A stretch of DNA of 64,000 nucleotides from Amphiura filiformis (lineage: Eukaryota; Echinodermata; Ophiuroidea; Amphilepidida; Amphiuridae): positions 24,615,393-24,679,392 of the forward strand of contig NC_092646.1 of assembly GCF_039555335.1 (NCBI RefSeq). The letters run 5' to 3'. Of this stretch, positions 3,926 through 64,000 are shown piece by piece. How positions within the stretch are numbered: position 1 is the first letter of the stretch; each line of letters begins with the position of its first letter. Below the pieces are notes generated by a model. It ran no database searches, was not told the DNA's origin, and saw only the letters and a list, made by a program, of their open reading frames with translations. The position numbers and the translations under genes were made by a program.

Positions 3926-5519
3926 ATACCGCTAAACTTCATCGATTTCAATATAAATTTCATATCTTCGGCTGAAACAATGGCTTGAAAGAACTACTTG
4001 AAAATAATTAGGACTTATTGAATTGAAGGCGCTATCATCATAATCATCCTGCATGCTAGGAATGTTTCGATATCATCTAATTTATTCTTGTTTAAGATCA
4101 TCTCTTAAATATATATCAGAAAATTAACTTTTGGGGAAATATAAGACACAGGTCCAATTTTTGGGAAATGTATCAGCTTAAATTTAAGAACGCGAATTTT
4201 TGAGAACATTATTTTACCTACAAGCAATGCAAGCTGTATCAAAATGATTGGTACCCATCGGTTTTTCGTTTGTAATAGTCGAATGTAGCAGAAAATATTT
4301 TTTTTTTGGGAAAATACATGGTACAAGAGAAAAATCCCGGGAGAAAAATGAATGTAAAATAATACAAATATTGATAAAATCATCAAACCCCGGTACCCGT
4401 TTGCGGGAAATGTGTTAATTTAAATTTAAGAAAGCGAATCCATCTTTTTGATAATTTACCTGTTCACTAATTTTAACACGTTTATAACGTCTTAAAAGAC
4501 GCTATAAACGTGTTATAAACGCTTTTTGGTGGAACGTTTTGATCAAATGTTGGGTTAATTTAAAATGTTTTATATGAAAAAACTCTGCAGCATTTTCATA
4601 ATGCTGTCAAAATGTTATTCCAGAATATTTTTGGCAAACATTTTTGCAAACCATTTTGTCAATGCTTACTAACATTATGTTAGGATGTTTTGCATCAAGT
4701 TTTCAATAATGTTTTCTGAATGTTATTAAAACCTTTTATAATCCGACATGTACACGTTTTCCGTGAAAAGTTTTGTGTTTGCTGGGTAGATTACGAAGTT
4801 TCCATTTTGGGCCCGGGGGAGGGGGGGCACTTCAATATGAAATGGATATAGGTGTATAGGGCTGGCACTTTCGCACTAAGGGGCATTCGGTGAGAGCAAA
4901 CTGTAAAAAATATGGGGTCATTGGGTGAGAACATGACTTTTTTTTTTAATGGAATCTTTGGGTGAGAGCCGAAACAGCGTCGCAAAAACCTCGGAAGTCG
5001 AATTTCTAGTTCTAAATGGCTTCAAATTTCATTGTTTTTTCAAAATAAGTAACAAAATCAGTGATAAATTAAAGTTGCTGTTCAAATTGAACTTGTAAGT
5101 CTTTGGGTGATAGATCAAATGGAAAAATAGGGGTCTTCGGGTGACAGAGCATGTGTTCGTAAAAAAAATATGGGGTCTTTGGGTGACAGCGATGATAAAA
5201 AAAAGGGGGTCTTAACAGCCCTACATACGGGTCACCTCCAAAGTTGGAGTGCCCCCCGGATTTTAGGGCCTATAAATAAATGATGGATCTTAACTTCTTG
5301 CTAATATCAGGATATATTTGTAAGAACAGGTACAAAATGTAACAGTTCCAGTTATAGCTCCCAGTTAAACATTGCTGTGATTCGACGAGGCCACTTGATA
5401 ATGCCAGTTTTATTTACCTAAAATTGCTTAGGCTTTACATGTACTTTGATGGTCAGGTCATTTTTAAGGTTCTAAATTATCGATCGGTTGCACCAAGAAT
5501 AATGTTTCAACTTTAAACC
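3926..5519. repeat. copy 1 of a roughly 1-kb low-copy repeat unit, with insertions
   Basis: From the LINE end onward the sequence (ATACCGCTAAACTTCATCG, then the CTTCGGCTGAAACAATGG block) matches copies starting near 9509, 10427, 11683 and 12751. The unit includes an AT-rich segment ending in TTTGTGTTTGCTGGG (about 4480-4790), present at the same place in copies 3 and 4. This copy is interrupted by a separate inverted-repeat element at 4813-5259. No coding potential is seen. Confidence 0.8.
4813..5259. mobile_element. CCGGGG-ended inverted-repeat element (motif array)
   Basis: The ends are imperfect inverted repeats of about 50 bp starting CCGGGGG...GCACT. The interior holds about six degenerate copies of GGGGTCWTTGGGTGASAG separated by A-rich spacers. 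The flanks are ATTTTGGG and ATTTTAGG, an imperfect 8-bp target duplication. Paralogous copies of the host unit at about 11313 and 12564 lack the insert and read straight through ATTTTAGGGCC. There is no ORF, so the element is non-autonomous. Confidence 0.8.
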
Positions 5520-5935
5520 GTGTACCCACGGCGTGGTGAATTCTCAAAGTGGTCTGCCAAAAATCGCTTGCCCCCCCTCCTTTTGACGTGCCAAAAAACC
5601 TTTGCCCCCCCCCTTTACACACTAAGATTTTGAGGAACCCGAATTTAAAACTTTAAATTGTCTTAAATAATGCGAGCGCAGCAAGCAGGAAATTGTGCAT
5701 ATTAGAACGTGTTCCTAATGTTTTCCTATAGGCCTACGCCTTTTTAGCTAGGGTGTAATATAGAAACGGTGCCCAAAATATCTGTGCCAAAAATCACTTG
5801 CCCCCCTTTCGACCTGCCAAAAATCGCTTGACCCCGCCCCCTTTCGACCTGCCAAAAAATGCTTTCCCCCTCCCCTCTTTTGGCCTGCCAAAAAGCTCCC
5901 CCCCCCATAATTCACCACCCGGGCACGGGGTACAC
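5520..5935. mobile_element. inverted-repeat element with GCCAAAAATCGCTTGCCCC motif array
   Basis: The ends are inverted: GTGTACCC...GGTGAATT on the left and AATTCACCACCC...GGGTACAC on the right. The interior contains about six copies of a C-rich motif (CCTGCCAAAAATCGCTTG plus a C run). No clear target duplication is visible and there is no transposase. Confidence 0.65.
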
Positions 5936-6825
5936 ATAATTATTGCACCACCCCTTAGTTTAAAACCACTAATTCAACTCGGTTAGCTATACAATAACAG
6001 AAAATTATTTTATTTGGTATTTTATTTCAACAACATAGAAAAATATAACATTCATATATATCAATAAAATTATAGAAATTATACGTCCCAGAAATCATAA
6101 AACTTTTTTTTTTATATTAGCATTATTAAAACGTTGACAGAAAACTTGTAAATGTCGGGTTATAATAAAGAGTATAAAACGTTTTTATAAAAATCAAAAA
6201 CATTTTACTTGCTCCCAAACATCCTCCCATAATGTTCTTTAAATGTTGACACGGTATTTTGCAAAATATTTCACAAAAACATTTTGTCAAGATTTAAAAA
6301 ATGTTTTTGCAGTGTTTTTTTCATTCAAAACGTTTTCATGACCCTTATATAACCTGACACTTGAAGATTTGTGTTTGCTAGTATTTAAAACAATAAATAA
6401 TGACACTACACGGTCAATATTTGCAAATAATGATTTACAAAAATCTAATTACATTTGCCTCTGCCCCTTGCTTGTTATGTACTTTTTTCAATTCAATATA
6501 TTTCAATAACTGAGAAACTGAACGTGTATAAAGATATGCACGCACAAACATGGGCAGTAACCATAGCACTAAGTGTTTAGCACTTTCCCTTTCGTATAAT
6601 TAAGTGTTTTTTCCCGATTATAAGATTCCGTCTTACAGAGGGTCCGTCACATGTGTCGTAGAAGTTGTGTTGTATATGGGAGAAGTCCCGTGAAGATTAT
6701 TTGTGGAAACCTGCTTCAACAAAAGATATAGGGCGACATTATGTTTCCTTCATTGATTGTCTTTGTTCTTGAGTCCTCACTATTCATTATATTGCACTTA
6801 TTAAAATTATATGGGTTGAGCCTTT
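5936..6825. other. non-coding downstream region with repeat remnants
   Basis: About 6180-6375 is a degraded member of the ...GTGTTTGCTAG family seen at 4480-4790. The rest is AT-rich with no exon I can support. On the minus strand it would be the 3' flank or 3' UTR of the gene ending at 6826. No convincing AATAAA is placed. Confidence 0.4.
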
Positions 6826-6909
6826 TCATGAGCAGTCATCGCGTGATTCTGGAAATAGCTGCCTGGCACATGAAGGTCTGCGACGGTGTGGCCTCTGAGA
6901 ATACAAAGT
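6826..6909 (-). CDS. unknown gene, likely terminal exon 4
   Basis: A strong polypyrimidine tract and CCAG acceptor precede 28 in-frame codons ending in TGA. The encoded tail is Arg-rich with an RQLF motif, which resembles the cyclin-docking RxLF signature; that reading is inference only. Start phase 0 matches exon 3. Transcript evidence would decide. Confidence 0.45.
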   Translation of the reverse strand, partial: TLYSQRPHRRRPSCARQLFPESRDDCS

Positions 6910-9194
6910 CTGGAAAAAAGAAAAGGATAAAGAACACAGAGTTAACGTAATTGTAGAACAATAATTCAGGCAGTTTCGTTAGCTTACATCATTGGCATCG
7001 TGCTGGTGCATCCTTTGAATTTTAGCGTCAATGGCTCGGGTAGCAACGTTAATTTTTGTACAGTATTTTTTCTGGGACATGAGAGCAGCATAATGACATA
7101 TCGAATTGCATTCTGATTTCTGAATAATTATGAGGGATGTCCTTCTGATATCAAATAATTTTGACCATTCGTACTATTGAAGATACACATTTGTTCCCAA
7201 AAAGGTCTTGTGGTCCTTGAGTTATGATGCAGAGAGTGTCGAAACGAAACACCTTCATTAAGCAATTTGTAAAAGTGCGTTTTTGCATTCAAAACTTCAA
7301 GGTGTACCATCATCAATCCTCTAATCTAGACAATGAAAATATATTTTTGGGGTTGAAGGACCATTACAACTCCGACATAAAAATGTCACAGTTATTAAGA
7401 AATCCTCACAATTGTCTAGGTTTGTTTTTTATAACTTATTGGACTAGGCCTACTCCCTTTTACATTTAGAGCTATTTAGCTTCATTCAACAAAATGTTAA
7501 CAACACATTCTTACATTTTAATACCATCTAAATAGTGTATTTATGAACTCACCTGGTTTGGCGTAGGCCTACTTGTTGGGGATGACGTGACATCGTCAAA
7601 GTCTTCGTCACTGCCGTAACCTCCATCGGTAGACGTTAACGGGATTCTGTTGCAGAGCGGCGTCGATGGTGATGGAACCCTCACTTGATGAGACTGGAAG
7701 GAGAAGACGGGCGTCGTCGGCAATGGAGAGACGATGGGAGGGATAGTGATGAATTTGTCTGAAATAGAGCAAATAGAATAATGTTTCAAATGCACTGATT
7801 AAAATCTGGTGTAACCATGTTAACCGGATACAGACAAATAAGGCACGAAAATTTTGTTTTTCCAATAAACATGGTTAATGTAATAAAACCAGCAGTAAAA
7901 AAACCCACCAGAAAACATATACCAGCAAACACACAAATATTTTTAAAACGTTGTTGTTGTATATGAAAACATACAATAATAATTTAACAATGTTATCAAA
8001 TTTGTTATTGTAAAATATTTTTTGTTTTGTAAAATATTGAATAACCTTACCGTATGTCAATACGTTTTCAAATTTTCAAAAGTGTTTTCTGAACTTTATC
8101 AAAACGTCTTATCCCTTTATAAATCATATAACCCGACATTTAAACGTCATTTGTTTGCTGGAGTAACAATAATCACGAAAAATATCAGTACATGTAGTAG
8201 TCCCGAATCATCAGAAATGAGAATATGCCATAAGCACGTAACTTCATGAAATAAAGTATTAAACAACACGAAACCTGTGTAATTAATCTCTAACTAGAGA
8301 CAAAATCAAGCTTCGTCTATTCATCTTATTTTGTTACTCGATTCAAATTCTTCTATAATTAATTTAAACCATAGATTTGTTTAAACTCGCATTTAAAATG
8401 TTCATAAATACAAGACAATCAACACTTACAAGCCCCGGGGGTAAAGACGGACAGGAGATCGTCTACTTCCATGTCAAAGATGAGCTGCTCTTCGTCTTCA
8501 TCTGGAGATGAGGTCGATTTAGATGATGCCACGGGTGTGCTTGGACTTGATGGCAGAGAACTCCCCTGGTCGTGATGAAGATCTGCAAAAGTAAAATGGG
8601 AAATAAATGTTAAAGCTACATTTTTAGCGAAATCCGAATAACCTAAAGCATCTGCATGATCAAATCATTTATTCATTAAAATCTTGTTTATCGTAACGTA
8701 CAAACCTCACAATGATACATGCAGCCCGACATGTAACTCGATTTATTTCGTTTGGTATAGTTTTTCTACAAAGCCGACAAAAACATTTCATTAAAATATT
8801 TCCAGAAAAAAAAAGCATTTTTAGCTTATCGTACAAATCTCACAATGAAAATGCCCCGGGAAAATGCAGCCCGGCATGTAGCTCGATTTCTTTCTTTTTG
8901 TACAGTTTTTCTACAAAACCGACAAAGGCCTTTCATTAAAATATTTAAAGAAAAATTAAATTAACCAATGCCGATACAAAATAGTTAAAATATTTAGCAA
9001 ATATGCTATAAAGTAAAAAGAGACTTACCATTTCTGTCTAACCGCAGCTCTTCCTTGAGTTCAAGCCAAACATCATCTGTCGTTTTACTTTCCATCTCGA
9101 ATGAAGATGAGTTGAAGTCTGCCTCGAAAGCTTGTCTGTTGAACCACACCAGATCGTAGGAGATATCGTAACGGTCAGCAATGGCAAAATCCAT
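6826..9194 (-). CDS. unrecognised four-exon gene, acidic Ser/Pro-rich protein
   Basis: Exons on the minus strand are 9194-9029, 8582-8430, 7758-7553 and 6909-6826. All have AG/GT borders (donors GTAAGT, GTAAGT, GTGAGT), and phases 1, 1, 0 join into one frame of 202 codons plus TGA. The protein starts MDFAIADRYD, has an acidic amphipathic stretch DDVWLELKEELRL (about residues 40-52), then a Ser/Pro/Asp-rich segment with DEDEEQ and FDMEVDDLL. Proline-rich SPLPTTPVF and GYGSDEDFDD follow, and the C-terminus is basic with RRRPSCARQLF. It is probably mostly disordered, in the style of a transcription-activation or cell-cycle regulator, but I do not recognise the family. Exons 1-3 are firmer than exon 4. 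Confidence 0.65.
7028..7216. repeat. fragment of a foldback element in intron 3
   Basis: Matches one arm of the foldback elements at 15626-16275 and 57918-58583: ACAGTATTTTTTCTGGGACA, then GATGTCCTTCTGATATCAAA. It is truncated and lacks the opposite arm. Confidence 0.7.
7553..7758 (-). CDS. unknown gene, exon 3
   Basis: The acceptor is CTCTATTTCAG and the donor CAG before GTGAGT. It is 206 bases and ends in phase 0. It encodes proline-rich repeats (VSPLPTTPVF, PSPSTPLC) and GGYGSDEDFDD. Its reading frame is the continuation of exons 1 and 2. Confidence 0.7.
7919..8161. mobile_element. CCAGCAAACA-ended MITE in intron 2
   Basis: Begins with CCAGCAAACACACAAAT and ends with CATTTGTTTGCTGG, which are inverted copies. 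The interior is AT-rich with AAAACG/CGTTTT words, as in the related segments at 4480-4790, 10985-11300 and 12235-12545. No coding. Confidence 0.6.
8430..8582 (-). CDS. unknown gene, exon 2
   Basis: The acceptor is CTTTTGCAG and the donor GTAAGTG. It is 153 bases, phase 1 in and phase 1 out. It encodes a Ser/Pro-rich stretch followed by a DEDEEQ acidic cluster and FDMEVDDLLSVF. Confidence 0.75.
8695..8950. repeat. tandem duplication in intron 1 of the unknown gene
   Basis: Two copies of about 125 bp share CGTACAAA, CTCACAATGA, GCAGCCC and a TTTCATTAAAATATTT block, about 8695-8805 and 8830-8950. No function is visible. Confidence 0.65.
9029..9194 (-). CDS. unknown gene, exon 1
   Basis: Begins with ATG at 9194 and ends AGAAATG before a consensus GTAAGT donor. 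It encodes residues 1-55 plus one base (phase 1). Codon 56 is completed by exon 2 as Asp. Confidence 0.7.
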
Positions 9195-9508
9195 GATGAG
9201 TTGTTATAACGATGCAAGTTTGTAGAACTAGTAAATTAGACGATTGTAAAATGCGATTTTCAAAATTAGAAGCCAAATATTTTTACGTGGTGAACTGAAC
9301 GGAATGCAAATGCGAAGTGTCACTACTGCGAAAATAATACTTCTTATATTCTTATTAGTTAAGTTCAAGGGTAGTGGCACAATCGATAAACCCACCAATC
9401 AAATAACACCAGCATTAATTTGCATAATTTGTGACTCCACTTCAGATTCGCCGACCAATGAAAATCTTCGTCCATCGAAGGCCTAATCCTCCACTCTTGG
9501 AAGTCTAA
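9195..9508. promoter_or_regulatory. probable promoter side of the unknown minus-strand gene
   Basis: This is unique, non-repetitive sequence between the start codon at 9194 and the repeated units beginning near 9509. No clear TATA box is placed. It is assigned only by position and by being free of recognised repeats. Confidence 0.3.
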
Positions 9509-12500
9509 TCCGCCTAATCGACTGCGGCATGCCGGGTAATTGACCCGCCATACTTCAAAAGATACCGCTAAACTTCATTGATTTCAATATAAATTTAGTT
9601 TCTTCGGCTGAAACAATGGCTTGAAAGAACAACTTGAAAATAATTAGGAGTTATTGAAATGAAGGTGCTATCATCATGATCATCATCAAACAATGATCTC
9701 CTATATCCATGTATGTACCAGAAAATTAACTTTCTGGGAAATATAAGGCACAAGAGTAAAATGAAGAAGTTTTTAAGAATTTTCAAATCTGAGACGAAAA
9801 TACCTATTCAGAAATATATTGGTTTATATTTAAGAAAGCAAATCCTTTGAGAAAACTCATTTACGAATCATTGTTTGACACGCAGTTTAAATTAAAATGA
9901 GGTTTCAATTTTAGGGCCTACGATTACTTATATATTTATAACAATAGATCTTAACTTCTTAATAAGAAAAGGATAAAAAATGTCGCAGTTATGATCCGAG
10001 TCGACGAAGCGACATGGAAATACCTCAAAATTTGAGTCAAATTGACGATAATTTGATGATCATGTCATTTTTATAAGTTTTATAAATATTAAAATTATTA
10101 TAAGTTCGTGCAGTACTCTATGTTGATTTTGTATTTCAAATAAATGAAATCATTTTTCATGTAGGTTTTTTTTTGCATGAATATAACCATTTTACTGGAC
10201 TTTTCAAATTGAAAAAAAACTTATAAATATAAACGCTATATTATTGCTCGAAAATTAATGCGCGTTGTCGATTTGTCTACTGAAAAAAAATCCCCCAAAC
10301 GCCAAAAACAAAAAAAAACAAAAACAAAAAACCCTAAAACTAATCAGTCTGATCCTGAGACTAGTATACCTAAATACCTTTAGGTATACTAGTCTCAGGT
10401 CTGATCTAACTGAAAACCTAAGCCCAATCTGTCTAATCGTCTGGTGGATAATTGACAGCAATTCTTCAAAAGATTTAACAATAAATCCCACATTTTCGGA
10501 TGAAACAATGGCTTGAAAGAAGGCGCTATCATCATGATCATCCTGCTAGGACTACTTCGATATCATCAAATTTATCCGTCTTTAAAATGATCTGTTAAAT
10601 ATATACCAGAAAATTCACTTTTGGGGAAATATTATGAGACACAAGAGCAAAATGAATTAGTTTGATAAGCTTTGATATACGAAAATTCGTAGTATTTTCG
10701 AACCCCGGTACAAATTTGTGGGAAATGTATCAGCTTAAATTTAAGAAAGCGAATTTCTGAGAACATTATTTTACCTACAAGCTGTATCAAAATGATTTCA
10801 TTTCTAATGGATGAATGTAGCAGAAAATATTTTTTTGGGAAAATACATGGTACAAGAGAAAAATGAATGTAAATACAAATCAGTGATAAAATCTTCAAAC
10901 CCCGGTACACGTTTACGGGAAATGTGTTAATTTAAATTTAAGAAAGCAAATCCATCTTTTTGAAAATTTACCTGTTTACAAATTTTAACACGTTTATAAC
11001 GTTTTAAAAGACGTTATAAACGCTTTTTGGTGGAACGTTTTGATAACATTCAAATGTTGAGTTATATTTAAAACGTTTTATATGAAACAAACTCTGCAGC
11101 ATTTTCATAATGCTGTCAAAATGTTATTCCAGAATATTTTGGGCAAACATTTTTTGTAAACGCTATACTTATATACATTATGTTAGGATGTTTTGCATCA
11201 AGTTTTCAATCATGTTTTCTGAATGTTATTAAAACCTTTTATACCCTTTTAACCTGCATGCAAACGTTTTCTGTAGAACGTTTTGTGTTTGCTGGGTAGT
11301 TTAAATTTACAAGGTTTCCATTTTAGGGCCTATAAATAAATGATGGATCTTAACTTCTTGCTAATATCAGGATATATTTGTAAGAACAGGTACAAAATAT
11401 CGCAGTTCCAGTTATGCTCCCAGTTAAACGTTGCTGTGATTCGACGAGGCCACTTGATAAATGCCAGTTTTATTTACCTAAAATTGCTTATAATTTGATG
11501 GTCAGGTCATTTATAAAATAGGATCTAAATTATCTTAGTAAGTTTGTCCAGCACGCAGGGTTGATTTTGTATTATAGGCCCTATAATGAAATCAACTTTG
11601 CATGAATTAAAAAATTTCTTTAAAAAAAAGCGATATTATATCTCAAAAACGATATTTACTTATATCAATTTTCTATCTTTTAATCCTAATCCGCCTAATC
11701 GTCTGCCGGGTTTTGATTGACACGTCATACTTCAAAAGATACCGCTAAACTTCACCGATTTCAATATAAATTTCATATCTTCGGCTGAAACAATGACTTG
11801 AAAGAACTACTTGAAAATAATTAGGACTTATTGAATTGAAGGCGCTATCATCATAATCATCCTGCTAGGACTGTTTCGATATCATCAAATTTATTCTTGT
11901 TCAAGATGATCTCTGAAATATATATCAGAAAATTAACTTTTGGGAAAATATAAGACACAAGAGCAAAATGAATTAGTTTGATAAGCTTTGATATACACAA
12001 ATTCGTAGTATTTTCGAACCCCGGTACAAATGTGTGGGAAATGTATCAGCTTAAATTTAAGAAAGCGAATTTCTAAGAACATTATTTTACCTACAAGCTG
12101 TATCAAAATGATTTCATTTGTAATGGATGAATGTAGCAGAAAATATTTTGTTTGGAAAATACATGGTACAAGAGAAAAATTTAAGAAAGCGAATCCATCT
12201 TTTTGAGAATTTACCTGTTTACTAATTTTAACACGTTTATAACGTCTTAAAGGACGTGTTATAAACGCTTTTTGGTGGAACGTTTTGATAACATTCAAAT
12301 GTTGGGTTATATTTAAAACGTTTTATATAAAAAAACTCTGCAGCATTTTCATAATGCTGTCAAAATGTTATTCCAGAATATTTTTGGCAAACACTTTTGC
12401 AAACCATTTTGTCAATGCTTGCTAACATGATGTTTTGCATCAAGTTTTCAATAATGTTTTCTGAATGTTATTAAAACCATTTATACCCTTAATATAATAC

Positions 12501-13250
12501 GACATGTAAACGTTTTCCGTGGAAAGTTTTGTGTTTGCTGGGTAGTTTAAATTTACAAGGTTTCCATTTTATGGCCTATAAATAAAGTATGGATAAACTT
12601 CTTGCTAATATCAGGATATAGGCCTATTTGTATAAGAACAGGTACAAAATGTCGCAGTTCCAGTTATGCTCCCAGTTAAACGTTGCTGTGATTCGACGAG
12701 GCCACTTGATAATGTCAGTTTTATTTACCTAAAATTGCTTACTGATAATTATAATCCTAATCCGCCTAATGATTGACACGCCATACTTCAAAAGATACCG
12801 CTAAACTTCATCGATTTCAATATAAATTTCATATCTTCGGCTGAAACAATGACTTGAAAGAATTACTTGAAAATAATTAGGACTTATTGAATTGAAGGTG
12901 CTATCATCATGATCATCCTGCTAAGAATGTTTCGATATCATCATATTTATCCGTCTTCAAAATGATCTCTTAAATATGTACCAGAAAATTAACTTTGGGG
13001 GAAATATAAGACACAAGAGCAAAATGAATTAGTTTGATATAAATACAAATTATTATAAAAGTTATTGACTTGAAGGTGTATTATCATATAAATCATCCTG
13101 CTAGGAATGTTTTGATACCATCAAATTTATCAATTCAAAATGTTCTCCTTATGTATACCATTAAATATAAATATATTTGGGTAAACATTTAAAATGAATA
13201 ATACAAATTGATAAAATCTTCAAATATCAGTACAAATTGTGGGCAAGGTA
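9509..13250. repeat. array of four degenerate copies of a roughly 1-kb unit
   Basis: Copies begin with variants of TAATCCGCCTAATCG, a GCCGGGT block and CTTCAAAAGATACCGCTAAA, near 9509, 10427, 11683 and 12751. Spacing is about 0.92, 1.26 and 1.07 kb. They share the CTTCGGCTGAAACAATG, TGAAGGCGCTATCATCAT and TACCAGAAAATT blocks. Copies 3 and 4 also share the AT-rich MITE-like segment and the sequence through TCGACGAGGCCACTTGATAA. Copies 1, 2 and 5 are more decayed or truncated. The short open frames here differ between copies and are not coding. Confidence 0.8.
10354..10399. repeat. perfect 21-bp hairpin
   Basis: The left arm at 10354-10374 reads CCTGAGACTAGTATACCTAA plus one A. Its exact reverse complement is at 10379-10399, with a 4-base loop. 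It is specific to this copy of the array. Confidence 0.85.
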
Positions 13251-14169
13251 TGATCCGAGTTAAATTGCTGAGATACTCAAAATGTCATTTCCCCTGGTAT
13301 TTTCTACAGCATGTAAAGTACGGGGGAAAAATTTGGAAGGGGTGTGCGGCAAACTTTGGGAACTAAGAACTGAAACTAGGGGCTTTTTTTGATGAAATGA
13401 AATTAAGGCCAAATTATAGGCTGTGGAGCTAATAAGTTCCAAATATTTTACAAATTTGAGCTTTAAGAGCTACAATTGTCAGAATTTGAGGCATGCACTG
13501 GTGACCTGAAAACCAAAAATGTATGTATTTTTTGTTATTGATATACCAATGGCCGAAAAAGCAACCCATTTGTGGCACGTCCCCGTCACATTGTTATATT
13601 TTGTACTGAGTACCCCATCCCAGTCCAAAGGCAAGTTACTGTATCTCCTTTCCAAATTGAGTTTTGTACTAATATTCAACCTCCCTTTTTAGTAGTATCA
13701 TCAGGTGAACAAAATATAACTTCAAAAGAAATCAAAGACAATCATTTCAATTCTCAATAATTTTTTATTATTTATATCAGTTAAGTTATAAACCAATAAT
13801 CCAAAACACCAGTCATCTTTAAACACATGAAATGACCTCAAGCAAAAGATGAATGCCAATTGGTTGGGAAAATAGATTTTGAGATATGACCAAACAAGTA
13901 TGCACATCTTGTTGTAATTGTTCAGGCAATTTTACACAAACATTGATGTTAATATCCACCAACTGAAATGAGGAATTGAAAAATATAGACAAGTATATTT
14001 TGTCAGTCATCAGTGGATATCAACATCAATGTTTATGAGTTATTGAACTAAGTTGGAATAAAATCACAAAACTTGCTACATGCAAGTGTCATTTACTTTT
14101 GGATACTGAAATTCAAGCTTTTATTATCTGTTTACGGCAGATTAATGCTTGTCAATGTTTTACTGTATT
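13251..14169. other. unassigned intergenic sequence
   Basis: No exon, RNA gene or clear transposon is seen. A short inverted repeat pairs AACATTGATGTT near 13940 with AACATCAATGTT near 14023. Open frames here lack splice signals or recognisable motifs. Confidence 0.4.
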
Positions 14170-14417
14170 CGTTCCATTAACACCCCCCCTCCCCGAACCG
14201 CCCATGCCCTAGAAGCACCCGCCCAGTGACTTTACGACAAGCAAACTGATAGTATATTATCTGCCCATGCAAATCCGAATCATGGTCTGAAACATATGAC
14301 ACACTGATGATGATGGATGAATATTTTGTGCCTTTTTTACCTATTGTAGGCTTAAACAATGTAAAAAATAAGCGCCCACCTAAAATGACTTTGTTAAGCA
14401 CCCTGGGCGGTTAATGG
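14170..14417. mobile_element. GTTCCATTAAC-ended inverted-repeat element
   Basis: Begins GTTCCATTAACACCCC and ends GGGCGGTTAATGGAAC. The interior repeats AGCACCCGCCC-like words. It is non-coding and probably a MITE. Confidence 0.55.
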
Positions 14418-14651
14418 AACTAATAAGGTAATAGTGGTCAGGTTTCACTAATCTGGATTTGCAGTGGTCATCTTCGCAAATCACTGAGGAATCAGCGATG
14501 TCCAATTATAGCATAGCCAAAGCATTCTGATGGGCGAAAAGCAATTGAATGGTGGATTACACAAGCTTAACATTATATTACTCTCTGATAAAGTGAAAAG
14601 TCTTCCGATGATAAAAAGAATTCTTTTACAGGCTAACATTCTATCTGAATT

Positions 14652-14847
14652 GGGTTATTCTAGTTGAAATCCATACACACCCTATGGAAGACATGATCTT
14701 ATATCTTCCACACACAGGAGCGTAAAATCCATATGGGGTTACCGGAATGGGGCAATGGGCTAATCCATTTGGAATCTACACCCCCTGTGTGAGAGATTAA
14801 GGCCATGTCTTTCATAGGGGGTGTATGAATTTCAACTGGAATAGCTC
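14652..14847. mobile_element. GGGCTATTCCAGTTGAAAT-type palindromic MITE
   Basis: About 195 bp. The ends are complementary (GGTTATTCTAGTTGAAATCC and its inverse), and the interior has CTATGGAAGACATGA, CTTCCACACA and CCCCCTGTGTG blocks in both orientations. Relatives lie at 21676-21870, 27789-27835, 28082-28411, 56310-56412, 59286-59535, 59739-60013 and 60097-60255. Confidence 0.75.
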
Positions 14848-15370: not shown

Positions 15371-15625
15371 AAAATGCATGTTTTTTTTACATGATTACAA
15401 CTAATTTTATGATCCACATGTAACTGAAATCAATATTACATTTTGGACAAAATATTGCCTTGTTGATTCATAACCCACTAATTATGTGTGCTGCTAGACT
15501 ACGCAAGTTTTGGAAAAAGCACTCTTCCAATTATGCAGGTATAGAAGTTCATTCACATATTTCTTGTGTTGCATGGTAATAAACCACGTCATGGACGGAA
15601 ATTAGAAAAAATGTAAATGTCTCTT

Positions 15626-16275
15626 TTAAGGGATCTGGAATGAGCGTTTTGACAGTATTTTTTGTGGGACATGAGAGCAATTAGACATATCGGATTACAT
15701 TCTGAATACGAAGAATGTCCTTCTGATATCAAATAATTGATTTTTTGAAATTCACGATATAATACAAATTTTATGACAAATTATTAAAATTTGATATTTT
15801 TCACATTTTTGATATATAACAGTCCTTGGAAGTAAATTTTATAAATCTAATGATATATTCATGTATGTAGCTGGGAGGAAAAGCGATCAATTGAAAATTT
15901 TGACCTTTCATATTGAAGATATGGAATTTTTTCCCAAAAAGACCTAATTTTTATGTGTGTTTTGGGAAAAAAATCCATATCTTCAATACGAAAGGTCAAA
16001 ATTTTCAATTGATCGTCGGCTTTTCATCCCACCTACATACACTTTAAATATAAATCATCAGATTTATACAGTTTACTTCGAGTACTGTTAAATATCAAAA
16101 ATATCAATTTTTAATGATTTGTCATAAAATGTGTATTACATTGTGAATTTCAAAAAATCAAAATTATTTGATATCAGAAGGACATTCTTCGTATTCAGAA
16201 TGCAATTTGATATGTCTGATGCGCTCTAATGTCCCACAATAAATACTGTCCAAGCGTTCATACCCCATCCCTTAA
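15626..16275. mobile_element. 650-bp foldback element bounded by TTAA
   Basis: TTAAGGGATCTGGAATGAGC at the left is mirrored by CCCTTAA at the right. Almost the whole element is two long arms that pair (GATATCAAATAATT, CAATTGAAAATTTTGACC and their inverses). Complementarity continues about 9 bp into the flanks. A second copy is at 57918-58583 and a fragment at 7028-7216. No ORF. Confidence 0.8.
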
Positions 16276-53200: not shown

Positions 53201-56200
53201 GTAAATATTGAGGACAAAATTCAGGTTTTTCATGTGTTGTTTCAAAGAATTTTAGATTTGTCATTTTGAAATTCCCGCCAGCAATCGTCTGAACGTAAAC
53301 AAGTTTTTCCTAAAATTGTAAATTTCCTTAAAAACGACTTTTGTTGATCAAACTTTGGATTATTTAAGATGTAATTGTTAAAGGATGTAGAATTTTAAGA
53401 TAATTTTGAGTATTTTCACGTTTTACATGGTCAAAAAGGGGTCATCAGTTTGATTCCTGATTTTAAAACACTAGCAGTTCTAGTTATTAAATTTCGTCAT
53501 GTTCAAAATCTTTTTCGAAGTGAGCGCCTGGCGCGGAGTGATTCGCCGATATCCATAGTAACGAGCTTACGCTTTGAACGCAGCCGCCAAAAGGTTCCAT
53601 GAACGCGTTCAGGAGAGTATATAAAGGCCGTGCACGACGCGAATTAATCAGATTGCTTGGTGGACAATAGTCCACCCACGAACCCTGAAAGGGAAACCAC
53701 AGGGTAAGCACTGCCAACCAAAGCAAATACACCCTACTCAGGAGCTCAGATTGAGCTAGGGGCAGCTTGGCTACCACAATAGTGGCAACACCAGGGTGGT
53801 TATACACTCAGGTGTTTTGGCCTAGCGCCTATGCCTAATTTGGGCAAGTGACTTGCCGCACACACGCACAAGTCCAATGGAAAATTATGCACTGTATTCA
53901 TGTGCATTCACTGTTGCATGGCAAGCTTCGCATTTGGTGTATAGGCAGCATGGATACCCTGAAGTAGGCCTAGGCCTTGGCCTAGCCTACGACTATGTCA
54001 TGTGATGACAGATTCTGTTGATTAAATTGTATTTTTATGCTTCTTGATTATTCAAGCAGATAGTATATTCGGCAGCATTTATTGGTAATTTATTTAGATT
54101 TAAAAGAGAGAAATAAGGAAATATCGTCATGATCATCAACAAAGATTGTGTATTTACCTGTATTAACTTGTAGGGCCTATTTATGTTGTGATGTGAAAAG
54201 ACAAATATGAAAGCAAAATAACAATACAAGATATAACAAAAGAAGCAAATATAAAACAGAATTGTCAAGTCTCATTTTTACCTGTTACTTCTCCTTTCAT
54301 GCATCACTGATTCAACATGTCTTGGGGAGAATTCTAGTCTTTGATACTACGCTACCACTTGTATGTTTAGAAGGCTAGTCTTCTCCACCAGTCGTTTATA
54401 AAAGTATTAGGGGCAAGCTCGGTCCCGTTACAATATTAACAGAATAAATAACCTCCGGTGTAAAAAATTGCACCGCTGTCCGACCGAAAAACCATAGTAA
54501 AGTACTCTAGCATCGAATGCGTAACTATCGTGTGCAAATTCGAAGCTAGAGTTCTCGAGTAAACCTCAAAAGACCGTTCCGCTTGTCCAAACACTCAAGT
54601 ATCAGAAGGATGGTCCACAATAGCGTGATTCACGTAACATGAATAGGGATTAAAAAGCTGTCAAGTAGAACCATGTGCTTCTTTTGTCCTATTAAGCTAT
54701 TTGCCATCAAGATTTCATATATGGAAACAGTTCAGACCCAGAACAGGATCATTTCAGAAATTAATATTTCGTTCTGGGTCTGATTATTCGGACTAACTGG
54801 TAACCAGCGTTGGAAAAAGCTGGTATCGCGTAGCAAAATGGTACACAATTTTATCAATTTGCTTCACAATTTTGGACTTACACACTGAAGTACGTGAATG
54901 TACCAAGAGAAAAGTAATGAAAGCAAATTTTGCTACGCATAAAAAATGCTTAATTCCAATACTGCTGGTAACAAAAGTTATGTATAGGAGCAAAGAATCC
55001 AATTAATCCACTGAAATTTCAGTGATTCAAGACAAGTTGTTCAATATGTTAAGAAATGAGGTACATTCTAGCAGTAATTACAAGAAATTACAACACATTA
55101 CTTTACTATGTATGGATGGAGCAGTGCAATACAAATAATCATGCTTAACTCGCAAACACAAAATAGGAATCAACTGACATTTTGGGAATAAGCTTTTATC
55201 GTGGATATCTACTGAAAAATGTCATAAAAAGAGGATGCTACATATGAACAAAATCCAAGAGGTATGGTAATGTGGCTGGTTGTTTCTGAATTGGGGCTTG
55301 AATTGAATGGTCCTTTTTACAGTTCTTATCTTCATTTAAGCAAACTGCCCATACATTTTGCTTCATATTTTTACTGGGGTATTTACCTACTTTCTGCAAT
55401 ATTTTCACAGTGATGTTTCAGTTCAAGGCTACTGAAATTTACCAGACATTTTCAAAATATCTAACATTTTCCAAGCTAAGTGGATGTATGGAAGGGCATA
55501 ATTAAATTAATAGAATTTGTGTCGCAGTGGCAGAATGTAGACGTGTTCATCTGTAAAAAGAATATACCGTAGCCTAATAATGCATGTATTAATATAATAT
55601 ACCTTTGTCATTTTCACATCACAGCGAAATCTCGCGGTGAGTTACAACAACAGACTACCTGAGAATCAATCACCAAGGTAAGCAACTGACATTTTGGGAA
55701 TAAGCAGTCAAGTTAGCTCAATCGAGCTATTAGCAGTCAAGTTAGCTCAATCGATAAGGCATTCGACTATGGTGCAAGAGGTTGCGTGTTCGAACCCTGG
55801 TGGTGCCTAGTACACTCTTGTGGAAAATTGAGTTAGCTTGAAATTCCCTTGGACAAGGAACGTACTGCTAATTGTCTTGTTGTAACCCGTACTAACTCGG
55901 GGAGCTGATCCTGGTTGCGATGGCTATTTGTGGAATGTCTAGGGTGTGCGCTCTTGAAGCAGCAAAGTCCCTGATTTGTTGTTAAATGGTTTATGGAATG
56001 ATGTGGGGCCGTAGTGAGGCTTGTGGATCAATGTCTAGGCGTTGTGCCTGTGCGTAGCGCAAGTCCCTATAAATCACTGCGCTTAAAAAAAAAAATTTAA
56101 GCATATATTGTGAAATGTAACTCTCAAAATACATTTAATATGTCCAGTCTATGATTTTTGTCTATCCTTTGTGAACACCTGGACCAAGTCACTTCAAATC

Positions 56201-57434
56201 ATCCCCAAGTCACATGGTTTAGGAATACAGAGAACATTCCTAAACCAGTGACTTGGGGATGATTTGAATTGACCCCCACATGACATGAGTCTGGTATTGG
56301 AGTCACACATTCAGGTAATCCCATTTGAAATTCACACTCACTGTGTGGAATATTAAGGTCATTAACGAAAGGTCCATAGGGGTGTATGGATTTAAATTGG
56401 AATAGCACATTTTTCAGGTGTTTCAAAATTGTCCACATTGTTTCCAGTATTGCCATGTGAGTGCAAAATTTGACCATGCAATCTATTGTGTGTTTTCCAT
56501 TCAGGTCAATCCCTACTCCTAATCTCCCAGATGGTGTGTCGCATAGAATAAATAACAACCCCTACTGTCTTAGGGATGGAAGGAGATTTTCCCAACCACC
56601 AACGATGGTTTACTCGACTACGAAGCAGTTGGCAGAGCCTAAAGGTGCTGAGGGAGACAAGTAAGTAGTGGTCTGTGACAGTGTGGGGGTGTGTGTGGGA
56701 GGGGTGGGGGTAATTGTATCAGCATTCATACCATGGAGGTGTGCATATGTGACCAGATCTGATCCAATCGGGCTAAAGTTTGCAATAATGAAACTGAGAT
56801 ATAGGCAAAAAATGAGGAGAAAAAACAAACAATGAAAAACTTTAACAAATTATGGACATATAAAAGGTTCATAACTTTGCAACGAAGTATTCAAGAAACT
56901 TGGGGATTCAACATCAGTAAGTGTAGGTACTGAGCAAGTTAGTAATTGTAGTAACTGGGGTTGAACAACTCTTCCTACATTTGTATACCTTTGTAACATT
57001 GTTAATCGGTGATGGATCCACACTTGTCCACGTGAACACAAGTTAATGGAAGCGCGCATAAAAACTATGCATTACTTGTGTGCGCGTAAAATTCGTCATG
57101 CCATGCCTGGAACTTGGTTTTGAATTCAGTTGGAATAGTCGCTAAACATTGCCGTTTTATTTTGTAGTTTTATTGCTGATATCAACAGAGAAACCATCAA
57201 ATCTTGTTGTCGTTGTTGAAAAGGATTCAATCATGTTTCACCGTTGTTCCTCACCATGGTGATGAACAATGGTGAAACATGATTGAATCCTAAATAACTA
57301 ATAGTATTACTTACCTGACATACACTATATGTTCTGTTGTTCACAGATCTGTAGCAACCAGCAAGAAGCCCCCTGTACTTGGCATATTGCCAGAATGCCA
57401 CCTATCTAAGGATGAACCATATCTTCATTTGTGA
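41220..57434 (+). CDS. NDUFA7: NADH dehydrogenase (ubiquinone) 1 alpha subcomplex subunit 7
   Basis: Four plus-strand exons, 41220-41270, 55625-55677, 56505-56660 and 57347-57434, join in phase 0, 2, 2 to a 115-residue protein, close to the family length of about 113. Diagnostic blocks are MATASPWIVRMRNFFVG at the N-terminus, then NLPDGVSHRINNNPYCLRDG and RRFSQPP. The protein ends LSKDEPYLHL, matching the family's DQPYL end. NDUFA7 is a small accessory subunit on the matrix side of mitochondrial complex I. Intron 1 is 14,354 bp because a 10.1-kb LTR retrotransposon sits in it in the same orientation. Confidence 0.93.
42744..42772. repeat. perfect 13-bp hairpin
   Basis: TTCGTACCCATGC and its inverse, with a 3-base loop. 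Confidence 0.85.
42819..42841. repeat. perfect 10-bp hairpin
   Basis: ACAGCAATAC and GTATTGCTGT around GCA, 46 bp downstream of the preceding hairpin. Confidence 0.75.
43681..43865. mobile_element. Tigger/pogo-type MITE
   Basis: CAGTGGAAACTCATTATAAC...TTATAATGAGGTTTTACTG, 185 bp, with TA on both flanks (43679-43680 and 43866-43867) and an inner TTCGTTATA word in both orientations. Typical of pogo-clade mariner MITEs. Confidence 0.85.
44027..44062. repeat. perfect 14-bp hairpin
   Basis: CCCATACCGTACTA and its exact inverse, with an 8-base loop. Confidence 0.85.
44284..45915 (+). repeat. 5' LTR
   Basis: 1632 bp, TG...CA ends. It contains a TATATAAA box at 45098-45105, about 190 bp before an ACCAGGGTGG block, and a TAGGCCTAGGCC palindromic cluster near 45441-45470. 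The minus frame 44982-45287 is a by-product. Confidence 0.93.
45098..45105 (+). promoter_or_regulatory. LTR TATA box
   Basis: TATATAAA within AGGAGAGTATATAAAGGCCG. The identical sequence is at 53618-53625 in the 3' LTR. Likely core promoter of the element. Confidence 0.7.
45918..45935 (+). promoter_or_regulatory. primer-binding site
   Basis: TGGTGTCTGGCGGTAGGA lies just inside the 5' LTR. Its complement ends GACACCA, as expected for a tRNA 3' end; tRNA-Leu is the likeliest match from memory, unverified. Confidence 0.65.
45975..47011 (+). pseudogene. retrotransposon Gag-like frame with one frameshift
   Basis: Opens with an acidic Ser/Thr-rich leader, then a GVKIKPQTYDGTTSWSDYL block typical of Ty3/Gypsy Gag. 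A one-base shift near 46190-46240 moves the frame to 46277-47011, which continues with LGYLDPTERRDYHSLVACLN, LRFGTENQEELFWVKL and a FVETEAVYKAE tail. The C-terminus lacks a CCHC zinc knuckle. Instead it carries a duplicated basic module (RKSPSSxxRxRRRLA, near residues 155-170 and 210-225 of the second frame). Gag forms the particle that packages the RNA; this copy is probably non-functional because of the shift. Confidence 0.85.
47012..48485. other. LTR-element interior without coding
   Basis: Where pol would be expected, no catalytic motif is visible in any frame. Two related stretches around 47345 and 47390 share GCGGAAAAGCCCT/CCGGAAAAGGGCT words. Possibly filler or packaging sequence. Confidence 0.55.
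48486..50156. mobile_element. nested DNA element with CTGGAGAGGACA motif array
   Basis: Ends GGGCTATTTCATTATAAATG plus ACA and the inverse, flanked by ATGG at 48482-48485 and 50157-50160. Five variants of CTGGAGAGGACA followed by TTTTTAA lie at about 48674, 49042, 49391, 49564 and 49748, all in the same direction. 1671 bp, no ORF over 70 codons. Confidence 0.85.
50157..50539. other. LTR-element interior between nested elements
   Basis: Unique stretch, no motif recognised. The minus frame 50140-50322 starts inside the nested element and is not credible. Confidence 0.4.
50540..52410. mobile_element. nested DNA element with GTCCGTCCCTCACA motif array
   Basis: Ends GAGTGTGATCGGAA and TTCCGATCACACTC, flanked by TAAA at 50536-50539 and 52411-52414. 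About fourteen copies of TGTCCGTCCCTCAC or its inverse occur (near 50717, 50906, 51064, 51076, 51267, 51445, 51648, 51816, 51838, 51994, 52016, 52208, 52373 and 52384). Two of these pairs form palindromes. A 361-bp internal duplication (about 50820-51080 and 51181-51445) is also present. No transposase. Confidence 0.88.
52415..52801 (+). other. 3' interior and polypurine tract
   Basis: Short non-coding stretch ending in GAAGAGGGGGTAG immediately before the 3' LTR. The polypurine tract primes plus-strand DNA synthesis in LTR elements. Confidence 0.7.
52802..54432 (+). repeat. 3' LTR
   Basis: 1631 bp and nearly identical to the 5' LTR, with TATATAAA at 53618-53625. It could act as a sense promoter toward NDUFA7 exon 2 (inference). 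Confidence 0.93.
54437..54796. other. NDUFA7 intron 1 after the LTR element
   Basis: A short inverted repeat pairs CAGACCCAGAAC (about 54732) with GTTCTGGGTCTG (about 54771). Nothing else supported. Confidence 0.45.
54805..54964. mobile_element. hAT-type MITE with duplication CTGGTAAC
   Basis: CAGCGTTGGAAAAAGCTGG...AATTCCAATACTG flanked by CTGGTAAC at 54797-54804 and 54965-54972. Same family as 26494-26680. It lies in a remnant of the 20273-20627 foldback family. Confidence 0.88.
54973..55624. other. intron 1 distal part with MITE remnants
   Basis: 54973-55080 matches the inner arm of 20273-20627. 55085-55240 matches part of the element at 24479-24822 (CATGCTTAACTCGCAAA, GAATCAACTGA, GTGGATAT). 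The remainder up to exon 2 is unique. Confidence 0.55.
55625..55677 (+). CDS. NDUFA7: NDUFA7 exon 2
   Basis: 53 bases, acceptor TTCACATCACAG, donor GTAAGC. It encodes RNLAVSYNNRLPENQSP and two bases of an Arg codon. Confidence 0.88.
55706..56095 (+). mobile_element. tRNA-derived SINE with duplicated A-box and poly(A) tail
   Basis: AGTTAGCTCAATCGATAAGG (A-box) and GTGTTCGAACCC (B-box) head a 300-bp body ending in a 17-base A-rich tail at about 56083-56095. The A-box segment GCAGTCAAGTTAGCTCAATC occurs twice, at 55706 and 55731. In NDUFA7 intron 2, sense orientation. Confidence 0.8.
56180..56412. repeat. foldback and GGGCTATT MITE remnants
   Basis: 56180-56290 is related to the foldback at 27457-27710 (CAAATCATCCCCAAGTCACA and inverse). 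56310-56412 is a GGGCTATT MITE remnant ending TTGGAATAGCAC. Both lie 90-320 bp before NDUFA7 exon 3. Confidence 0.65.
56505..56660 (+). CDS. NDUFA7: NDUFA7 exon 3
   Basis: 156 bases, acceptor TTTCCATTCAG, donor GTAAGT. It encodes the conserved core NLPDGVSHRINNN and CLRDGRRFSQPP. Confidence 0.95.
56661..57346. other. NDUFA7 intron 3
   Basis: 686 bases. Contains a GT-rich stretch after the donor and the hairpin 57222-57291. No other feature. Confidence 0.5.
57222..57291. ncRNA. pre-miRNA-like hairpin in NDUFA7 intron 3
   Basis: 28-base arms at 57222-57249 and 57264-57291 pair with a single mismatch (AGGATTCAATCATGTTTCAC on the left), around a 14-base loop. Size and shape fit a miRNA precursor, but a tiny foldback transposon is equally possible. 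Confidence 0.35.
57347..57434 (+). CDS. NDUFA7: NDUFA7 exon 4
   Basis: 88 bases, acceptor TTGTTCACAG. It encodes SVATSKKPPVLGILPE, then SKDEPYLHL and TGA. Confidence 0.93.
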
Positions 57435-57917
57435 TGAACATAAAGATGCACTAGAAAAATATCACCTGTATATAATAGTAACTTTACTGATTGACTGACT
57501 ATATGGAATGTTTCTGCTACCTGTTCATGATGATTAGAATACTATCCCTCCACTGAGAACAAGTCCAACAGACATCACCTTATGAATGCAGTGAGAAATT
57601 GGCTACAAAGTATTATATGTAAAATCAGATATGAATATTAAAACTTGAGAGAATGAAAAGTATTGTCGGTATTGAAATGGTCCATTTGGGTTCCTCGAGA
57701 TAGTGAGGTCAGTGTGTGCTCCACTGGGCGTAGTATTATATTACATGTGTTGACTCAAAGAACTGGCATCTTTTCCTGTGCAATCAAAGAAGGTACACCT
57801 GTAACTGAAGTAAATGGCAAAAAAGCACTGCCATCATTGTCTCGAGGAAGCCAAATGGACTAGAGTAAGAAAGTTTAAACAACAATACAGCCAAGACCAG
57901 CATGTTTTGTAACATAT
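57435..57917. other. 3' UTR and downstream flank of NDUFA7
   Basis: The 3' UTR probably ends around 57640-57660, where ATATTAAAACTTGAG is the nearest AATAAA-like signal. The rest is unassigned. Confidence 0.4.
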
Positions 57918-58583
57918 TTAAGGGATCTAAAATGAGCGTTTATTGCGTTTCGACAGTATTTTTTGTGGGACATGAGAGCACCCCAGACCTATCGAATTGC
58001 ATTCTGAATACGAAGCATGTCTTTCTGATATCAAATAATTTACATTTTTGAAAATCACAATATAATACAAATTTTATGACAAATTATAAAAATTTGATAT
58101 TTTTCAAATTTTTGATATATAACAGTCCTCGAAGTAAATTATATAAATCTAATGATATATTCTTAAAGTATATGTAGCAGGGAGGAAAAGCCGACGGTCA
58201 ATTGAAAATTTTGACCTTTCATATTGAAGATATGGATTTTTTCCCAAAAAGACCTAATTTTTTTTGGTGTTTTGGGAAAAAAAATCCATATCTTCAATAC
58301 GAAAGGTCAAAATTTTCAATTGATCGTCGGCTTTTCATCCCACCTACATACACTTTAAGTATAAATCATCAGATTTATTAAGTTTACTTCAAGTACTGTT
58401 AAATATCAAAATATCAATTTTAATGATTTGCCATAAAATGTGTATTAAATTGCGAATTTCAAAAATCAAAATTATTTGATATCAGAATGACATTCTTCGT
58501 ATTCAGAATGCAATTCGATATGTCTGATGTGCTCTAATGTCCCAAAATAAATACTGTCCGAACGTTCATACCCCAGCCCTTAA
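57918..58583. mobile_element. second copy of the 650-bp foldback element
   Basis: TTAAGGGATCTAAAATGAGC at the left, CAGCCCTTAA at the right, TTAA at each end. Arms as in 15626-16275. Its flanks do not extend the pairing, so TTAA looks like the true target. Confidence 0.82.
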
Positions 58584-59285: not shown

Positions 59286-60255
59286 GGGCTATTACATTTA
59301 AAATTCACACTACCCCTGTGGAAGATTTTGGAAATATCTTCCACAGGGGGAGTATGAATTTTAAATGGGATGAAAACAGCTCCATTTGTAACTCGCCCTC
59401 CCTCAGTGGAAGATCCAGGTTGAATCTTTCTCAGAGGGTGTATGAAATTCAAATGGAGCTGCCTAATGTGTTCATTCCATTTGAAATTCATACTTCTACA
59501 GGGGTAGTGTGGATTTAAATGGATTAGCATGTCCATTGCCACCTGGTGGGGGAATTTTAATACAAATTGGTTGGAAAAGGAAAAGGTAAGTTGATATGTT
59601 AAAATAATCAAAACAAACATAATTGTGTTTAGTATCCAGCATATCTTTTTAAATTTCAAATCTTTCCATTATGTATTGCTGTGTTCAGTTGCTTTTTGTA
59701 TCAACCTGTTGGACAATGATGCATGCAATATCTTAATGGGCTATTCCAGTTGAAATCCACACTACCCCTGTGGAAGATTTTGGTAATATCTTCCACAGGG
59801 GGAGTATGATTTTCAAATTTAAATGGTCAAGGTTAATCATTTTGTAACTCATACTCCCTCTGTATTATGGCTTGGCCTATATCTTCCACACCTGGAGTGA
59901 GGATTCAAATGGAAGTTCCCCAATTGTATATTTGATTCGAAACAAATACTCCCTCTGTGGAAGACTTTAACTTAATCTTCCACAGGGGTATTGTGGATCT
60001 TAAATGGAATAGTCCAATTCACTGTTTCAACCAATAAGAATCATTTTGAGGACTGTATAGTTCCTTTTACCAGATATGCATGTTTTAGCCTTTACAGGCT
60101 GTTCCAGTTAAAATCTATACACCGCCTATGGGAGACATGACCTTAATGTCCCACACAAAGGGTGTAGATTTCAATCGGGTGACTCTTTTGAAATTCACAC
60201 TCCCTGTGTGGAATATAAAGGTCATGTCTTCCAGGTGCATGGATATCAACTTGAA
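59286..60255. repeat. cluster of three GGGCTATT-type MITEs
   Basis: Copies at about 59286-59535, 59739-60013 and 60097-60255. The first two carry CTGTGGAAGATTTTGG and ATATCTTCCACAGGGG as inner hairpins, and are longer than the roughly 195-bp form because these inner blocks are multiplied. Confidence 0.7.
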
Positions 60256-63180: not shown

Positions 63181-63299
63181 CATACATACATGAGAGCTTT
63201 TGTTACACGCCATTTCAAAAGATCACAGCGTGAAAAACCAACACATATGTAAAATATATACAAGAAACAATTGAAAAACAAAAGAAAAATGAATCATGA

Positions 63300-64000
63300 A
63301 GCAAGCAAAATTATGTTTGCGGAAACAGGTGGGTTTGAGGCCTTTTTTTAAAGGCAGAGACTGTTTGAACACTTCGCACAGATGTCGGTAAATTGTTCCA
63401 GATCAGAGGTGCATTGTAGGTAAATGCCTTGTCGGCAGCGGATTTAAAAGTCCAACTGGGTATGACCGGCACATTCAAACGTGTGCGATCTGAGGCGGAT
63501 CTAAGGCCCTCACGAGGATTCTTAAGTTTCAGACATGATGACAGGTATTCTGCAGAGCTGCCAACTCTCCCTCTTTTTGCAGGAGACTCCCTACTTTTAA
63601 ACCTTTAGAACCCTTAATTTTTGGTCATCTCCCTGAAAAGGAAATGGTTTCCTCCATTAAGATGTACACATTTTGACAAATCTCCCTGATTGCAACAGGA
63701 AATCTCCCTTTTTTCAAGATTCAAATGTTGGCAGCTCTGATTCTGGTCCAATGCCGGCAAGGCATTTAAAAACATACAGCATGGCTTTGAATGTTATTCT
63801 ATCCTCTACAGACAACCAGTGGAGGCTAAAGCGGTGATACATGGTCCCTTTTCTTTGCACAAAAGATGATTTTAGCAGCCCAGTTTTGAAGGGTCTAAAG
63901 GCGAGCGATATCAGTAGTGTTGGCACCCATGAGGAGAACATTGCCATAATCAAGCCTGGATAAGATAAGTGAGCGGATAATGTCATTACTAGTATCAAAG
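63300..64000 (-). mobile_element. LINE fragment, minus strand, running out of the window
   Basis: The minus strand encodes pieces of a reverse-transcriptase C-terminus: LSRLDYGNVLLMGAN, LQNWAAKIIFCAKKRD, LHWLSVEDRITFKAMLYVFK, then after an insertion YLSSCL, NPREGLRSASDRTRLNVP and WNNLPTSVRS. Stops and frame changes make it a pseudogene. It continues beyond 64000. Confidence 0.8.
63549..63739. mobile_element. inverted-repeat element with TCTCCCT motif array, inside the LINE
   Basis: CAGAGCTGCCAACTCTCCCT...AAATGTTGGCAGCTCTG, flanked by ATTCTG on both sides. It interrupts the LINE between the GP(E) and YLSSCL codons. Several TCTCCCTGA words lie inside. Same family as 22298-22492. Confidence 0.75.

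Follow-up and report, generated by a model that had tools for sequence, protein, structure and literature searches.

Short words repeated many times near the ends of DNA transposons have been described in several systems, which are the closest counterparts of the elements treated here, located within 64,000 nucleotides of the ophiuroid Amphiura filiformis (assembly GCF_039555335.1, contig NC_092646.1, positions 24,615,393 to 24,679,392 of the forward strand; this whole stretch is referred to as the window). CACTA elements such as En/Spm and soybean Tgm/Tgmt* carry a short, palindrome-forming word many times near their ends, which is bound by a TNPA-like transposon protein, and between soybean families of this one species the ends stay conserved, whereas the repeated motif has diverged along with the protein that binds it (PMC2613891). 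The elements of the window have neither CACTA ends nor 3-bp duplications, are mostly short, and contain words that run through the interior. The Mutator-like element (MULE) Muta1 of Aedes aegypti has subterminal tandem repeats of 9-15 bp, duplications of 8-9 bp, and hundreds of derived non-autonomous copies that differ in repeat number (PMC5225508). By analogy, it may be regarded as the nearest match for the group with 10-11 bp duplications described below, albeit with regular tandems in long terminal inverted repeats (TIRs) instead of irregularly spaced words, and no transposase is seen here in the scanned open reading frames (ORFs). In the hAT transposon Hermes, an octamer binds many short subterminal sites through several of its BED domains, and the STR1/STR2 quasi-palindrome of Hermes resembles head-to-head word pairs found here (PMC10368747); the Hermes motif is about 4 bp long compared with words of about 10-25 bp in the window, where the duplications of the CAG-ended group are mostly 6 bp. 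Galileo/Foldback elements bear multiple transposase-binding (THAP) sites, which are proposed to confer binding specificity, within ends of internally repetitive structure (PMC3688188) and long TIRs of 0.5-1.2 kb, whereas the arrays here lie between short TIRs. Finally, Xmix/Xstir of Xenopus is a T2 miniature inverted-repeat transposable element (T2-MITE) with an amplified internal segment (PMC6004289), in that case a simple-sequence repeat in a TTAA-targeting family, in contrast to dispersed words in several groups.

Sixteen elements of the window were considered (Table 1). Fourteen had been listed in an earlier reading of the letters alone (the sequence-only reading) as having inverted ends and an interior made mostly of copies of one word; 33407-33711 and the nested element 39116-39431 were absent from that list. 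Coordinates are boundary-refined, and elements are named by their start, 14168, 22293, 27192, 63553, and 38795 being identical with 14170, 22298, 27190, 63549, and 38794 of the earlier list. Most of the elements combine mobility signatures with repeated short words inside. They are probably non-autonomous, MITE-like cut-and-paste DNA transposons of at least four duplication groups, in which the word is the predicted binding site of a transposase or of a partner protein. Inverted repeats, a target duplication or an empty site, and the lack of a transposase gene inside are in accordance with a non-autonomous nature; the longest open stretch measures 61-107 amino acids in each of the 11 elements tested out of 16, and nine of these stretches returned 0 Pfam families.

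When both ends of the 14 listed elements were locally aligned and compared with 200 mononucleotide shuffles, the ends of 12 aligned better than all shuffles. By this test the inverted ends claimed for 4813 (score 23, null maximum 24) and 27190 (19, null maximum 22) were not confirmed; these two are supported otherwise, by paralogous empty sites and by a perfect 6-bp duplication, respectively. Two insertions are directly visible. Element 4813 is missing from two repeat copies near 11320 and 12566, which read ...TTTCCATTTTAGGGCCTATAAA..., or one change from that, and thereby define an 11-bp duplication, one base being missing from its left copy. The joined flanks of 34046 differ from the units of the surrounding 33-bp minisatellite by one mismatch in 40, the best match elsewhere having 14. 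The insertion of 39116 is supported, its excision together with one duplication restoring an open frame of a long interspersed nuclear element (LINE). For 28213, a search for a paralogous empty site gave a best match of 17 mismatches to the joined 40-base site, within the 13-18 of random chimeras. The empty sites of 4813 belong to a cluster of diverged direct repeats at 3923-13130; the minisatellite (34591-37545, about 83 copies, interrupted by 34046) displays long-range self-similarity, which suggests a higher-order repeat. Candidates with a TIR and a duplication numbered 67 in the window compared with 3-16 in five shuffles, and since they are mostly foldback elements, finding a 12-bp TIR together with a duplicated 4 bp is insufficient proof by itself. 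One long foldback element is present in two copies, 90% identical, at 15616-16283 and 57917-58583; half an arm of the former contained no word array.

A boundary search across the 16 elements identified perfect duplications of at least 4 bp in seven (27192, 28213, 63553, 39116, 48486, 50540, and 38795) and no clear target duplication for 5520, 14168, 22293, 31337, and 33407. Of the duplication lengths previously assigned to the locus, TA and 4 bp were upheld; in place of about 8 bp, the CAG-ended group (27192, 28213, 63553, 22293) has perfect 6-bp duplications in three of its four members, the G-run group has 10-11 bp in 38795 and 4813 and an imperfect one, seen by eye, in 31337, and the sole 8-bp case is the unlisted 39116. 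TA, which is weak evidence and not always the top-ranked option, fits 30404, 34046, and 37622; in 34046 it is confirmed through the surrounding minisatellite, in the other two the assignment rests on 2 bp. The duplications of 38795 and 4813, and imperfectly that of 31337, fall into the Mutator-like range of about 8-11 bp, and those of the three TA elements agree with Tc1/mariner-like elements. Element 39116 combines CAG...CTG-like ends with an 8-bp duplication on both sides, as in hAT, its right end being ..TATG and not CTG. The 6-bp duplications of 27192, 28213, and 63553 depart from the 8 bp of hAT; the CAG ends of this group are reminiscent of hAT, among which a clade with 6-bp duplications is known. 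CACTA membership was rejected, none of the 16 elements having CACTA/CACTG ends with a 2-3 bp duplication. That unrelated transposases share one architecture, as had been proposed, is plausible because the duplication lengths (TA, 4, 6, and 10-11 bp) differ; none of the transposases themselves was found in the scanned ORFs.

The words are about 10-25 bp long and form C/G-rich blocks amid AT-rich spacers. In whole elements (38794 being represented by its right-hand 511 bp only), word enrichment exceeded every dinucleotide shuffle in 14 of 16, the exceptions being 48486 (reached by 1/20 shuffles) and 39116 (12/60); when the seed filter was relaxed, shuffles attained the score of 31337 as well (44 versus a maximum of 56). 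After 30 bp had been trimmed off each end, the interiors of 12 of 15 elements still contained a repeated word above all shuffles, narrowly so in 27192 (28 versus 27) and 63553 (27 versus 23). The claim of one-word arrays thereby holds for these 12, and fails for 14168 (no word found), 30404 (13/100 shuffles), and 34046 (3/100), in which the word sits mainly at the ends. Word coverage per element amounts to 4-39%, so that the elements are studded with their word and not, as had been stated, mostly made of it. Likewise, 38795-40772 also contains a LINE fragment and a nested element, so that the array once ascribed to its whole length is restricted to 40262-40772. Measured against equally long pieces taken from elsewhere in the window, 8 of 14 elements were above every control, and 30404, 31337, 34046, 38794, 48486, and 63549 were reached by 2-8% of controls (60 or 12 controls). 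A pattern of chance or low complexity spotted by eye would be in line with the marginal scores of 48486 and 31337 and with the lack of a significant interior array in 39116, 14168, and 30404, and is nevertheless highly improbable, being contradicted by the trimmed interiors, by the strong cases 37622, 50540, 4813, and 38795, and by a scan in which 30 of 255 windows of 500 bp, many of them minisatellites, lay above the highest score among shuffles. The high windows that fell outside the listed elements comprised two minisatellites and 59.25-60.25k. A 118-bp tandem repeat at 32099-32692 is rich in TGACCCC words. Single-strand structure was discarded as a common feature, a folding z below -2 being obtained for 6 of 16 elements and for 28% of 40 controls, and Rfam returned 0 RNA-gene matches at gathering scores.

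Words and ends are linked. Elements 4813 and 38795 have matching ends and the core GGGGTCATTGGGT in common without alignable spacer, blastn of 4813 against 38794 matching only ends and a word. In window-wide scans, the word matrix of 4813 retrieved 38794 as the top three outside matches and as four of the top eight, and the 38794 matrix retrieved 4813 at ranks 1, 3, and 8. The two word variants differ consistently (GGGTGA versus GGGTA; p=0.0014), with the proviso that choosing the sites per element favours a difference. For this pair, the word is therefore common to copies of one family, as the sequence-only reading had anticipated. A stretch of 36 nucleotides (78%) is shared by 22298 and 63553 and one of 28 nucleotides (86%) by 27192 and 28213, according to blastn. 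Within groups, the terminal bases and the duplication length are kept while words differ: a G-run plus CACT accompanies 10-11 bp, CAG goes with 6 bp, and GGGCTATTYCA is common to 48486 and the additional word family described below. The situation resembles that of CACTA elements.

Words are found at most 45 bp from both ends in 9 of 15 elements versus 4.1 expected (p=0.003), a count that for 34046 and 37622 partly follows from TIRs containing the word. From this placement, and from words tracking similar ends, putative multiplied binding sites are the best reading. An alternative would see the words as functionless by-products of copying, in which slippage, hairpin template switching, or gap repair during transposition carried the terminal word inward. 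Signs of copying do exist: 5520 contains tandem units of 32-35 bp and has clearly raised flank identity (9.1/24 versus 6.0), in 50540 a segment of 359 bp is duplicated internally and one-sided flanks agree at 9 or more of 12 bases for 11 of 105 word pairs, and palindromic, head-to-head word pairs are located at four places in 37622, 34046, and 50540 (37801/37818, 34229/34249, 51075/51087, 52371/52387). Flank identity is also clearly raised in 22298 (10.0) and 28213 (9.7), where a longer word or dyad explains much of the excess, and slightly in 4813, 33407, and 50540. Copying plausibly contributes, since duplication including flanks is visible in 5520 and in some copies of 50540. Replication slippage, which the sequence-only reading had offered as a birth mechanism, is disfavoured as a general cause because mean flank identity is near random in 5 of 11 arrays (38795, 63553, 27192, 31337, 37622) and several arrays hold copies in both orientations; copying also leaves the words close to both ends and their link with the ends unexplained, so that words devoid of function are unlikely. 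A binding-site role and birth by copying can both hold.

Elements 48486 and 50540 are bracketed by direct repeats of 1.6 kb (44281-45916 and 52799-54433), which differ by 15 substitutions in 1624 aligned bases (0.92%) and 23 gap columns (blastn 97.6%). The region 44281-54433 is likely a retrotransposon with these repeats as its long terminal repeats; its gag-like ORF at 46106-47011 had no Pfam match. If both elements inserted after the retrotransposon, their internal differences, among them the 9% divergence of the 359-bp duplication, predate insertion and belong to the source family.

Several results weigh against multiplied binding sites. No transposase was recognized by Pfam in eight ORFs of the window, including none of the MULE type, or in the nine element stretches. 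Among six further inverted-repeat elements or arms, two also scored slightly above all 60 shuffles, with three copies each; three of the remaining four had no array and one was reached by 1/60 shuffles. No counted word lies at most 45 bp from either end in 4813, 38795, 31337, and 48486, and 50540 and 33407 have words this close to one end only. When words were compared within and between elements, the pair 27192/28213 failed the test (p=0.11) and 22298/63553 gave a weak result (p=0.031). Both pairs reached modest ranks in the cross-scans, those of 22298/63553 being 7 for 63549 with the 22298 matrix, and 5, 6, and 8 for 22298 with the 63549 matrix. Element 50540 provides evidence in both directions. 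In favour of binding sites, the same 14-mer stands at 12 of its 15 word sites despite 9% divergence of the 359-bp duplication (32/361 columns); against them, this identity is inflated by picking sites for matching, and within that duplication word columns are not better conserved than others (4/41 versus 28/320 differing).

In the proposed scheme, each word would be a subterminal site for the transposase of its family or for a transposon-encoded partner such as TNPA. The terminal bases would be read in the catalytic step and stay similar within a group, and the word would be read by the DNA-binding domain of the transposase. Several sites may allow a multimeric transposase to locate a short, otherwise common sequence through avidity. 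Coding sequence would have been lost, copies with enough sites remaining mobile, so that mostly sites and spacers would be left; any drift in binding specificity would change all words of a lineage in concert. Instead of a transposase, a host protein acting in transcription, insulation, or silencing could recognise the words, the elements being selected or tamed via that binding. Like some regulatory sites, the words are specific, recur, and tolerate either orientation, and many different host factors could be involved; each group, however, has its own word, tracking similar ends, where a single host factor would predict a common word, and selection or taming by host binding is accordingly quite improbable. 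Beyond binding sites as such, a rather doubtful extension would have several unrelated groups of this genome converging on a type of element whose fitness depends on how many copies of one recognition word it carries, the words drifting in concert within a lineage, as transposase specificity changes, and spreading singly via hairpin- or repair-templated copying, amounting to a site-copy arms race across superfamilies.

Table 1. Elements and related features of the window (positions refer to the window; TSD, target site duplication).
Position	Strand	Feature	TSD	Word	Remarks
4813-5259	+	G-run-ended element	ATTTTAGGGCC, left copy 1 base short	GGGGTCWTTGGGTGASAGC x6	interior array; two paralogous empty sites
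5520-5935	+	element, ends GTGGTGAATT		TGCCAAAAATCGCTTGCCCCC x6	partly tandem
14168-14423	-	element, ends GTTCCATTAAC		TGGGCGG	chiefly terminal; trimmed interior without array
22293-22494	+	element, ends AGATGCCAA		AAATAGGGAGGTT x4	
27192-27376	+	element CAGGGACTG..	CAAAAT	AGGAGAGY	in dyads
28213-28399	+	element CAGGCCTTGTCTTTTG	GGAACA	TAGGCGAGTGAT	in dyads
30404-30741	+	element TA/CCGTATTT		AATAAACGCCCC	two copies close to each end; interior without array
31337-31688	+	G-run-ended element	about 11 bp, imperfect, by eye	TGTTTAGGGTG x4	
33407-33711	+	additional element, ends CAGTCAGCTTGACAGC (by eye)		CAAACGGTCCAG x5	
34046-34591	+	element TA/CCGTAAAATG		GACCAAAGTTACCCC, 5 in all	both TIRs and internal; inside 33-bp minisatellite
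37622-38593	+	element TA/GGGGAGACCGGGG		GGGCGGACTTGCCCC x9	in both orientations
38795-40772	-	relative of 4813	GTTTCTGACC (10-11 bp)	GGGGTCATTGGGTA x9	array at 40262-40772
about 38827-40261		LINE fragment inside 38795-40772			by eye
39116-39431	+	nested element CAGTGGCGTAGAT..	TAGAATTG (8 bp)		within LINE frame; no significant array
48486-50156	+	element GGGCTATTTCATTATAAATGACA, TIR 23/23	ATGG	TGGAGAGGACA	weak word
50540-52410	+	element GAGTGTGATCGGAA	TAAA	TGTCCGTCCCTCAC, 15 sites (12 exact)	359-bp internal duplication
63553-63739	-	element CAGAGCTGCCAAC	ATTCTG	AGGGAGATT x4	
14660-14840, 21733-21815, 27798-28120, 56321-56400, 59294-60213	mostly alternating	additional dispersed word family, ends TGGGCTATTCCA			

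The additional dispersed word family TTCCACAGGGGGAGTATGAATTTCAAATGG has 26 sites at up to 11 mismatches compared with 0-4 in shuffles, and GGGCTATTYCA is found both in this family and in 48486. Its 12-base end motif TGGAAYAGCCCA gives 10 matches versus 0.49 expected, one of them at the junction of 28213, which is suggestive only. At 17938-18202, a possible further TA element with ends CCTGGAGAGA was noticed. With a GC content of 32-42%, many repeats, and a LINE containing the Pfam reverse transcriptase RVT_1 (one of eight ORFs scanned), the window has the character of a locus from an invertebrate animal. Minus-strand frames within 22100-28960 presumably resemble RNF220 exons; two such ORFs (24078-24401 and 28528-28959) had no Pfam match. 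Exact-pattern scans of viral contigs with six words as pairs and two TIRs gave 0 matches, and blastn of 50540, the only element compared there, found none among phages; both results say little, as neither collection comprises animal genomes. A scan of genome contigs for paired CAAAGTTRCCCC gave 10 prokaryotic loci, in which the 15-letter word occurred, at up to two mismatches, twice in four, three times in one, and not at all in five. The locus with three copies was read by eye; its copies, which sit in a short segment upstream on a contig from a gut bacterium, are taken as a coincidence.

Each ingredient of this architecture is known, be it from CACTA, hAT, MULE, and Galileo elements or from the Muta1 derivatives; what is unusual is how widespread it is within one locus. 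A literature search with six literal words returned one unrelated paper and none on these families, the accessible part of PMC4938662 makes no mention of subterminal repeats, and no report of such an architecture in many families or duplication groups of one locus was found in the literature searched, from which subscription papers and Repbase were excluded. So far, repeated subterminal sites have been described for individual families. A locus in which ten or more such families from several duplication groups lie together would make it possible to ask within a single genome whether the number of sites predicts copy number and whether recognition words evolve with the DNA-binding domains of the transposases. 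The words themselves would be short candidate recognition motifs for numerous transposases that are still uncharacterised.

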